DNA of 47,659 nucleotides from the NCBI GenBank assembly GCA_000989765.1, contig LBOW01000001.1, positions 1 to 47,659 of the forward strand, written 5' to 3'. Every line of letters starts with the position of its first letter. The stretch's first letter is position 1. Shown here in pieces: positions 45,356 to 47,659 of this stretch. The position numbers were made by a program, and so were the translations under genes. The notes under the pieces were generated by a model, which saw only the letters and a list, made by a program, of their open reading frames with translations, made no database searches and had not been told where the DNA came from. The stretch is from Candidatus Woesebacteria bacterium GW2011_GWB1_33_22. Lineage in GTDB: Bacteria; Patescibacteriota; Microgenomatia; UBA8517.

Positions 45356-46288
45356 TTATAAACCCAACAGAAATAAAATTAGTGCTTTTTGAACATGAAG
45401 TCTATTTTCAGCTTCTTGAAAGACAACAGATTTCTCTCCATCAATTACCTCACTGGTTACTTCATTTCCACGGTAAGCTGGTAAACAATGCATAAAAATT
45501 GCATTTTTCTTAGCAAGACTCATTAGCTTATTATTAACCTGGTATTTGGTAAATATTTTAAGTCGTTTTTCCTTTTCTTTTTCATCACCCATACTTACCC
45601 ATGTGTCAGTGATTACAACATCAGAATGAAAAATAGCTTCTTTAGGGTCTTGGGTTTCAGATATTTTGGATCCAGTTTTGGCAGCAATTTTTCTTGCAAT
45701 TGTACTTATTTCTTTTTTCATAAAATAACCTTTTGGGGAGGCACATTTAAAGTTAATACCTAAAATTGCTGAGGCAAGTGCTAAAGAATGGGTAACGTTA
45801 TTTTCACAATCTCCCACAAAAGAAATCGTTATGTTTTTAAATGTCTTTTTAACTTCATAAATTGTCATTAAATCGGCTAAAATTTGACATGGGTGTTCTA
45901 AATTAGAAAGTCCATTAATAATAGGAACTGTAGAATTTTCTGCTAGTTTAATAATTGATTCATGAGAAAAAGTACGTGCCATAATAATATCAGCTACTGA
46001 TGAAGTAACTTTAGCAATATCTTCTACTGGTTCTCTAGATCCCATTTGAATATCGTCTGGACCTAAATAAATTGCATGTCCTCCAAGTTGTGTCATTCCA
46101 ATTTCAAAGGAAATTCTTGTGCGTAGTGAGGGCTTTTCAAAGATCATTGTTAATGTCTTACTGTCAAGAAACTTTTTAACCTTTCGTTTTGTTTTTTGTT
46201 GCTTTTTTAAAACTATCGCTCTATCAATAATTTTTTTAATTTCATAAGCTGTAAGATCGGTAATTGAAGTTAGGTGTCTTAATTTCAT
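45356..46288 (-). CDS. argF: Ornithine carbamoyltransferase
   Basis: A 310-residue transcarbamoylase converting ornithine and carbamoyl phosphate to citrulline. The carbamoyl-phosphate loop is KPSLRTRISFE (usually S-T-R-T-R; here S-L-R-T-R), with GPDDIQMGSREP, the H-P-C-Q motif in LEHPCQILADL, the ornithine-specific DTWVSMGDE and HCLPAYRGNEV. These distinguish it from aspartate carbamoyltransferase. The ATG at 46288 fits the family N-terminus (MKLRHLTSITDL); an ATG at 46333 would extend into the divergent gene. No other arginine gene is visible, so biosynthetic and catabolic (deiminase-type) roles remain open. Confidence 0.93.
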   Translation of the reverse strand: MKLRHLTSITDLTAYEIKKIIDRAIVLKKQQKTKRKVKKFLDSKTLTMIFEKPSLRTRISFEIGMTQLGGHAIYLGPDDIQMGSREPVEDIAKVTSSVADIIMARTFSHESIIKLAENSTVPIINGLSNLEHPCQILADLMTIYEVKKTFKNITISFVGDCENNVTHSLALASAILGINFKCASPKGYFMKKEISTIARKIAAKTGSKISETQDPKEAIFHSDVVITDTWVSMGDEKEKEKRLKIFTKYQVNNKLMSLAKKNAIFMHCLPAYRGNEVTSEVIDGEKSVVFQEAENRLHVQKALILFLLGL

Positions 46289-46304
46289 TATTTCATTTTG
46301 TGAG

Positions 46305-46310
46305 ATTATA
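46305..46310 (-). promoter_or_regulatory. -10 box of argF
   Basis: TATAAT on the complement, 16 nt before the argF ATG at 46288, giving a leader of roughly 9 nt. A second complement box, TGaTATTAT, overlaps the divergent box at 46313-46325. Confidence 0.4.
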
Positions 46311-46312
46311 AC

Positions 46313-46321
46313 TGATATAAT
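46313..46321 (+). promoter_or_regulatory. Extended -10 of the VKOR-PyrD gene
   Basis: TGaTATAAT ends 6 nt before the ATG at 46328. It supports this start and a leaderless transcript, divergent from argF in a 39-bp gap. Confidence 0.55.
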
Positions 46322-46327
46322 ATCACT

Positions 46328-47659
46328 ATGCAAAAAGTACCTTTTATTGTTTTTGGAATATTTATTCTTTTAGGTCTTTCTGATTCTGTATTTTTAACTT
46401 GGGAACATTACACATTAACTTCAATTGGTTGCCCAATTAGCCCTTGGATTAATTGTTTAGCTGTGACATCTTCTAAGTATTCTGAAATCTTTGGTATACC
46501 ACTAGCGCTTTTGGGAAGTATTTATTATGTATTTTTATTTTTCTTTCTGACAAAAAGTAAGGAAAAAATGTTTAAGCATTTCTTTTTAATTACATCTAGT
46601 TTCGGAGTTTTATTTTCAATTTACTTAATTTATGTCCAAGCTTTTGCAATAGGACTATTTTGTCTTTACTGCTTAATATCTAGTGTGATTTCATTTTTAA
46701 TTTTCGGTTTAACCTTTTATTTTTTTGGCAGTGAATGGAAAACTTTAGTTGTTGATTCTTTTGGATATAGTTATGGATATATCATAAAACCTATTTTATT
46801 TTTGATTGACGCCGAAGTAGTTCACACTAACATGGTTAAGTTTGCTGAAATGTTACCAAAAAGTTTATTGAAACTATTTAAATTTATATTTGTTAACAAT
46901 TATACAAATTTAAAACAAAATATTCTAGGTATTAATTTTAAAACCCCAATTGGTCTTGCTGCGGGATTTGATTACGAGGCAAGACTTACGCAAACATTAC
47001 CATCCATTGGTTTTGGCTTTCAGACAGTTGGGACAATTACTAACATGGCTTATGGAGGCAATCCAGGACCAATGTTGGGTAGGCTTCCTAAATCAAAATC
47101 GTTACTTGTAAATAAAGGTTTTAAAAATCTAGGTATCGTAGAAACTCTCTCACGCCTTGTGGACAAGAGGTTTGTTTATCCTGTTGGAATATCAATAGGT
47201 AGAACAAACTCAGTTACATTAAATACCATTGGAAAATCTATAAATGACATTGCGACTGCGTTTAAAATTGTCAAAAAATCTAAACTAAATAATTCCTTTT
47301 TTGAATTAAACATTAGCTGTCCAAATATTATTCATGACCTTGGTATAAATTTTTACGAATTAACAAATTTAGAAAAACTTTTAATTGCTATAGATAAAGT
47401 TAATCCTAATAAACCAGTTTTTATAAAAATGCCAATTGATCAGACAGATAACCACACCATCTCAATGTTAAAATTAATAACCAGGCATAAAGTTAAAGGT
47501 GTTATTTTTGGAAATTTGCAAACCAATAAAAAACATAGAACACTTATTCAAAATGAAGTTAACAAATATAAAATGGGTAAATATTCAGGTAAGCCAACAT
47601 TTGAAGATTCTAATAGACTAATTAAACTTGCCTACAAGAATTTTAAAGATAGATTCATA
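46328..47659 (+). CDS. VKOR domain fused to quinone-type dihydroorotate dehydrogenase (partial at the right edge)
   Basis: An unbroken frame of 444 codons leaving the window. Residues 1-134 are a VKOR-family thiol:quinone oxidoreductase: about four to five helices, loop cysteines C35 and C43 (IGCPISPWINC) and the active CLYC (112-115). Residues about 150-190 match the N-terminal membrane helices of class 2 dihydroorotate dehydrogenase (KPILFLIDAEVVH). The barrel then follows: PIGLAAGFD (207-215), GFGFQTVGTIT, GNPGPMLGRLP, NISCPN (328-333), VFIKMP. No ATG, GTG or TTG suits a separate PyrD start before residue 151. PyrD oxidises dihydroorotate to orotate with FMN; both domains use quinone. The catalytic position is Cys331, where class 2 enzymes have Ser. 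Confidence 0.85.
   Translation, partial: MQKVPFIVFGIFILLGLSDSVFLTWEHYTLTSIGCPISPWINCLAVTSSKYSEIFGIPLALLGSIYYVFLFFFLTKSKEKMFKHFFLITSSFGVLFSIYLIYVQAFAIGLFCLYCLISSVISFLIFGLTFYFFGSEWKTLVVDSFGYSYGYIIKPILFLIDAEVVHTNMVKFAEMLPKSLLKLFKFIFVNNYTNLKQNILGINFKTPIGLAAGFDYEARLTQTLPSIGFGFQTVGTITNMAYGGNPGPMLGRLPKSKSLLVNKGFKNLGIVETLSRLVDKRFVYPVGISIGRTNSVTLNTIGKSINDIATAFKIVKKSKLNNSFFELNISCPNIIHDLGINFYELTNLEKLLIAIDKVNPNKPVFIKMPIDQTDNHTISMLKLITRHKVKGVIFGNLQTNKKHRTLIQNEVNKYKMGKYSGKPTFEDSNRLIKLAYKNFKDRFI

Follow-up and report, generated by a model that had tools for sequence, protein, structure and literature searches.

A conserved fusion of VKOR with a PyrD-type flavoprotein in Candidatus Woesebacteria and its relatives, and its possible role in disulfide formation

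What purpose could a membrane-embedded thiol-redox domain serve when it is joined, in one polypeptide chain, to a flavoprotein that resembles the dihydroorotate dehydrogenase (DHODH) PyrD? The question is raised by a gene of Candidatus Woesebacteria bacterium GW2011_GWB1_33_22 (here genome G000) that runs over the end of the analyzed stretch of 47,659 nucleotides (the window; positions 1 to 47,659 of contig LBOW01000001.1, here C1). From the ATG at position 46328, a single frame without stops extends to the end of the window, and the complete gene comprises 510 codons (C1:46328-47860, plus strand), 444 of which lie inside the window (46328-47659); the stop codon (C1:47858-47860, plus strand) is located 201 bases past the window end. 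A Pfam search with the full protein recovered a VKOR domain (residues 8-129, E = 2.9e-24; 46349-46714, plus strand) and a DHO_dh domain (residues 195-492, E = 2.7e-48) in the one 510-amino-acid product, which bears out the original prediction of a natural fusion of VKOR with a PyrD-type protein. The VKOR domain, a four-helix bundle according to Pfam, topology, and structural model, passed the curated cutoff of PF07884 (86.1 versus 27.5 bits). The second domain represents the PyrD-type FMN barrel, which starts at position 46910 on the plus strand and is cut at residue 444 by the window end (46910-47659).

The trivial explanation of such an architecture, i.e., an error of sequencing or assembly or the merging of two genes into one, is virtually out of the question. 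At least 40 related genomes share the single frame, and the full-length fusions stem from independent genomes, contigs, and named metagenome-assembled genomes. The joint, including the stretch between residues 134 and 151, where a masked stop had been considered, is open in 40 distinct fusions with a conserved linker, which eliminates a hidden stop or an assembly error. Nor are the homologues always encoded as two separate genes: among 374 genomes sampled from the class, 93 encode a PyrD-like protein, which is fused to VKOR in about 42 of them, and the fused form occurs in several families. Conservation was assessed with the 40 distinct full-length fusion proteins, whose identity to the G000 protein extends down to about 37%; the closest named genome, Candidatus Woesebacteria GW2011_GWB1_33_38, shows 76% identity across the full protein. 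On the scale of the phylum, a PyrD-like protein was detected in 78 of 380 sampled genomes. One further full-length fusion was found outside the class (G389:C16:46230-47762), and four additional genomes from outside the class (G393, G595, G649, and G672) harbor probable fusions, i.e., long open frames that match from residue 62-100. In the three f95 genomes among them (G595, G649, and G672), these frames have a length of 551-556 amino acids and are matched from residue 62 on.

Unfused PyrD-like forms also exist, and a few of them have VKOR as an adjacent gene (L233 and L014). VKOR and PyrD-like genes are direct neighbors at L233:5429-7009 (G349), where they are 3-4 nt apart, and at G376:C15:14653-16172; both pairs are probably recent splits of the fusion. 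In G025 (L014:1300-3712), a DsbA-like gene, VKOR, a tRNA gene recognized by eye, and an unfused PyrD-like gene are located on one strand, a gene order that possibly reflects a pre-fusion or broken-fusion state. A quick tree intermingles the fused and unfused forms and requires 14 changes by parsimony, and its starred branches force at least three fusion gains or losses. A strict single fusion event was rejected as a simple picture, since several gains or losses are implied by the tree.

The AlphaFold model of the entire chain, calculated with 54 homologues, has a mean pLDDT of 96.1 and a pTM of 0.92. The last VKOR helix leads into one further helix (residues 134-157; 46727-46798, plus strand), delineated by the model and by length conservation, and this connecting helix leads into the class 2-type quinone-tunnel helices (residues 162-188; 46811-46891, plus strand), whose H166 corresponds to H19 of E. 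coli PyrD. The tunnel helices, whose retention in the PyrD half had been proposed from the outset, are modelled at residues 162-175 and 178-188. Exactly 50 residues separate the CXXC motif of VKOR from this histidine in 32 of the 40 fusions. Because of this linker and the high pTM value, the geometry of the VKOR-PyrD joint looks constrained, as far as sequence and model can indicate. Four conserved cysteines and a near-constant linker are therefore further evidence that the joint is no accident of assembly. The PyrD part superimposes on human DHODH with a Z score of 48.7 and an rmsd of 1.6 over 350 residues (query 141-510); this structural alignment (VIA-align) covers the PyrD part alone, and the assignment of the VKOR part is based on its sequence. 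According to positive-inside counts, the N terminus, the loop between TM2 and TM3, and the PyrD domain are predicted to be cytoplasmic and the cysteines to face outward, with both termini of the VKOR domain on the cytoplasmic side.

All four VKOR cysteines, the outer-loop pair C35 and C43 (46430-46456, plus strand) and the active-site CXXC with C112 and C115 (46661-46672, plus strand), are located exactly at the positions originally given and are invariant in 40/40 fused homologues. Judged by their residues, both halves of the fusion look catalytically equipped. The fused copy is the sole VKOR above the cutoff in every fusion genome among 95 relatives. The search for DsbA or thioredoxin partners revealed a DsbA-like, membrane-anchored protein with a CPYC motif in G000 (C3:4989-5786, minus strand; locus L042), with TrxA and TrxB encoded nearby. 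The Thioredoxin_4 halves of this DsbA-like protein are swapped, with the C-terminal half preceding the CPYC half, as if it were circularly permuted.

The PyrD half is a DHODH by score. It has the class 2 fold with N-terminal tunnel helices, passes the NCBIfam equivalog model TIGR01036 for quinone DHODHs (215.3 versus 200 bits, full protein), and misses the cutoff of the class 1 model TIGR01037 (76.7 versus 270 bits); the only class 1-like trait noted is a cysteine at the position of the catalytic base. The pocket was compared in 88 members of the PyrD-like clade, 40 of them fused, by mapping residues on E. coli PyrD (Ec), and we take the roles of the mapped pocket and quinone-site residues to be established structural knowledge about DHODHs. 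As in class 2 PyrD, the quinone-site equivalents of Ec H19 (H166) and Ec R102 (R252) are kept (88/88), as are the FMN lysine Ec K217 in the clade and the ring-binding asparagines N328, N333, and N396 (Ec N172, N177, and N246). Unlike class 2 PyrD, the fusion protein has Y216 for Ec K66, V261 for Ec N111, C331 for Ec S175, L397 for Ec T247, and an isoleucine for Ec Y318. The exchange of Ec S175 for Cys is found in 88/88 PyrD-like proteins, that of Ec N111 for Val in 87/88 (39/40 fused), that of Ec T247 for Leu in 87/88 (40/40 fused), and that of Ec K66 for Tyr in all 40 fused forms; 12 unfused members retain the lysine, 10 of which constitute a fusion-free side clade. According to our own mapping, Y216 occupies the place of a lysine that the class 1A enzyme of R. 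arrhizus requires for DHODH activity (PMC10395836). The PyrD domain is part of a separate clade in which the dihydroorotate pocket is altered.

The genomic setting points in the same direction. The G000 genome, which comprises 860,025 bases and is 97% complete, was read completely. Searches with E. coli queries yielded no match for pyrC, pyrE, pyrF, and carB, a marginal match for carA (E = 0.004), and for pyrB a match to ornithine carbamoyltransferase alone. This ornithine carbamoyltransferase-type gene (45356-46333, minus strand; PF02729 and PF00185), the divergent neighbor of the fusion gene, is the sole carbamoyltransferase found in G000 and stands alone, outside any pyr operon, in a genome in which carB and the pyr genes are undetectable. 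A role in de novo pyrimidine synthesis would rely on carAB, pyrB, pyrC, pyrE, and pyrF, none of which was recognized in G000. The absence of pyrE from G000 was also seen in an HMM search that was positive in 14/14 control genomes, and this search gave no pyrE match in the fusion genomes G001, G007, G017, G029, and G046 either. These absences count against an ordinary quinone DHODH with an attached VKOR, which would oxidize dihydroorotate while each half on its own passes electrons to a common pool of scavenged quinone. Such an enzyme would agree with the score and with the close superposition on human DHODH, with the three conserved asparagines, and with the pyrE-like gene present in half of the fusion genomes (21/42 at E ≤ 1e-12), some of which could use the PyrD domain as a DHODH. 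However, four pocket residues are altered throughout the fused clade, and G061, G062, and G086 encode, in addition to their clade member, a separate DHODH beside pyrE. We regard this explanation as improbable: the DHODH assignment of the PyrD half is doubtful by pocket and setting, and the domain has probably been neofunctionalized.

The same searches of the full G000 genome with E. coli queries found none of men, ubiA, cyd, cyo, nuo, and sdh and only generic methyltransferase matches for ubiE; trxB, atpA, atpD, and tatC were found. The premise of a host with little or no respiratory chain is thus sustained, as no genes for an oxidase, complex I, or succinate dehydrogenase were recognized, and neither quinone synthesis nor a terminal oxidase was found in G000. 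The UbiA family, likewise absent from G000 in the HMM search, proved to be a misleading marker of quinone synthesis. Members of this family occur in nearly all genomes of the class (89/95), and three out of the four that were checked look like decaprenyl-phosphate phosphoribosyltransferase. To find UbiA in 41/42 fusion genomes is therefore hardly informative about quinones, and the lack of it in G000 may reflect a gap in the assembly. The original prediction had envisaged one quinone channelled between pyrimidine synthesis and disulfide chemistry. A joint quinone or electron economy of the two halves is plausible, whereas the link to pyrimidine synthesis is unsupported in view of the missing pathway, the clade-wide remodelling of the orotate pocket, and the separate pyrE-linked DHODHs.

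Which substrate might the altered pocket bind? The PyrD-type paralogue may act on a neutral ring, i.e., oxidize dihydrouracil or reduce uracil, with VKOR as its electron partner. The loss of the orotate-contacting Lys and Asn and the retention of the three ring-binding asparagines and the cysteine speak for such a substrate, but the missing Lys could be substituted by the invariant K263, which is adjacent to the position of the lost Asn. A precedent for another substrate in DHODH-like flavoproteins is provided by fungal paralogues annotated as class 1A DHODHs, which proved to be dihydrouracil oxidases (PMC10395836); these are soluble and oxygen-using, in contrast to the class 2-type, membrane-attached PyrD half of the fusion. 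On balance, we consider a neutral-ring enzyme of this kind rather unlikely, and it would overlap with the reading preferred below if uracil were the electron acceptor.

In which direction would electrons flow? An even-cysteine bias in exported proteins is the usual genomic sign of envelope disulfide formation. In G000, 47 of the 54 Cys-containing proteins classed as exported-like have an even count, compared with 109 of the 276 classed as cytosolic-like (Fisher P = 5e-11); the fusion genome G046 shows the same pattern (15/19 versus 43/124). Since the exported proteins carry even Cys numbers, disulfides form in the envelope and the VKOR of the fusion probably runs oxidatively. As proof that the fusion itself is the oxidant, the bias was rejected: G012, which has neither VKOR nor a PyrD-like protein, is biased likewise, with even counts in 23/23 exported proteins (G012:C1:1-400000, L307-L326). 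Disulfide formation in this class is therefore not dependent on the fusion, and another route to disulfides probably exists.

The neighborhoods of unfused PyrD-like genes are relevant in this context. There is a trend for these genes to adjoin redox genes and not pyr genes, with others located beside unrelated genes. The neighbors include DsbA-VKOR (L014), VKOR (L112, L233, and L238), a DsbD-like plus glutaredoxin gene and rhodanese (L020), DoxX (L111), and PNPOx-like genes at several loci. In two genomes, MsrB is located directly beside the PyrD-like gene (L218:7159-7566 and L220:5391-5780), and superoxide dismutase holds this position in one (L240:7089-7679). Crp/Fnr-type regulators are encoded near PyrD-like genes in six loci. 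The neighbors in family f1 hint at a surface-glycan role, and those in other families differ.

Some of these contexts, namely, the DsbD-like, glutaredoxin, and rhodanese genes and MsrB, are reductive and would suit a reverse flow, in which a cytosolic donor reduces the PyrD-type FMN and electrons pass via quinol and VKOR to envelope disulfides. The protein would then serve as a substitute for DsbD/CcdA or as an electron sink, a generalization of the originally proposed sink for dihydroorotate oxidation. Quinone reduction is the normal activity of class 2 DHODHs, and the tunnel residues equivalent to Ec H19 and R102 are kept. However, the reduction of DsbA by quinol is slightly uphill, and the exported proteins look disulfide-bonded. 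The even-Cys bias and the DsbA-like CXXC partner favor thiol oxidation, and operation of VKOR towards disulfide reduction is thus not favored. The VKOR proteins studied so far are, moreover, oxidizing partners of DsbA (PMC12453122). Taken together, reverse flow appears unlikely.

Our preferred reading, which we hold tentatively and at slightly less than even confidence, is that of a single-chain transmembrane redox enzyme that passes electrons from envelope thiols via VKOR, a quinone-like carrier, and FMN to a cytosolic acceptor; of this scheme, the direction, the nature of the carrier, and the acceptor are what we infer. The outward-facing VKOR half would reoxidize a DsbA-like thiol oxidase and thereby promote disulfides in exported proteins, a transfer from thiols to VKOR that is standard VKOR chemistry. 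Electrons would then reach a bound quinone-like carrier, located between the VKOR half and the tunnel of the PyrD half, a step that is proposed because the tunnel residues are kept and the geometry appears fixed. From the carrier, they would move to the FMN of the cytosolic PyrD-type domain and finally to a small cytosolic acceptor other than orotate. In this way, disulfide formation would have a complete electron circuit in a bacterium without a recognizable respiratory chain or quinone synthesis of its own, and the fusion probably serves to discharge, inside the cell, the electrons that folding proteins give up. Several observations stand against this transmembrane reading. Disulfide-type Cys parity occurs in G012 without the fusion, most PyrD-like proteins are unfused, and about 10 of 12 relatives with an unfused form lack any VKOR above the cutoff. 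The tree needs several fusion gains or losses, G000 yielded no gene for quinone synthesis, the PyrD half exceeds the cutoff for quinone DHODHs, and a pyrE-like match is found in 21 of the 42 fusion genomes. The stronger claim of a self-contained disulfide-forming machine that works without respiration, replaces the DsbB/VKOR-quinone-oxidase route, and uses a PyrD paralogue on a new substrate is accordingly put forward with more reserve, as a possibility that we rate at roughly a third of full confidence.

The VKOR-PyrD fusion is a new architecture built from two known families, and a search of the open-access literature found no paper on a VKOR-DHODH fusion, in line with the initial belief that none had been described. 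The closest parallels are the VKOR-thioredoxin/DsbA fusions (the Synechococcus type and CsVKOR-DsbA of Clostridium sp. [PMC12453122]), which likewise combine a four-cysteine VKOR and a redox partner in one chain, with the CXXC facing the envelope. In these proteins, a DsbA/Trx domain located in the envelope acts upstream of VKOR as the thiol donor, whereas the partner in the VKOR-PyrD fusion is a flavoprotein of the cytosol that lies beyond the quinone. From class 2 PyrD, with which it shares the FMN barrel and the tunnel helices, the protein differs further in its fusion to VKOR and in a host without a pyr pathway. Class 2 DHODHs with a Cys at the base position are rare and have been linked to anaerobic function in fungi, e.g., Ura9 of Schizosaccharomyces japonicus and the enzymes of Neocallimastigomycetes (PMC8520639). 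These are genuine DHODHs of pyrimidine synthesis without a VKOR fusion, and those of anaerobic fungi illustrate that the class 2 scaffold can work without respiration (PMC8520639).

For the VKORs of Clostridia, which lack quinone synthesis, a 2025 study suggested quinones of neighboring organisms or small thiols as oxidants and named as unresolved what oxidizes VKOR in bacteria without quinones (PMC12453122). How electrons from disulfide formation are disposed of without quinone synthesis or respiration is an open question, to which the conserved covalent link between VKOR and a flavoprotein offers a testable answer. In addition, a widespread clade is currently named DHODH by database rules, although neither the pocket nor the genomic surroundings favor dihydroorotate as the substrate, and this naming affects metabolic reconstructions of Patescibacteria.
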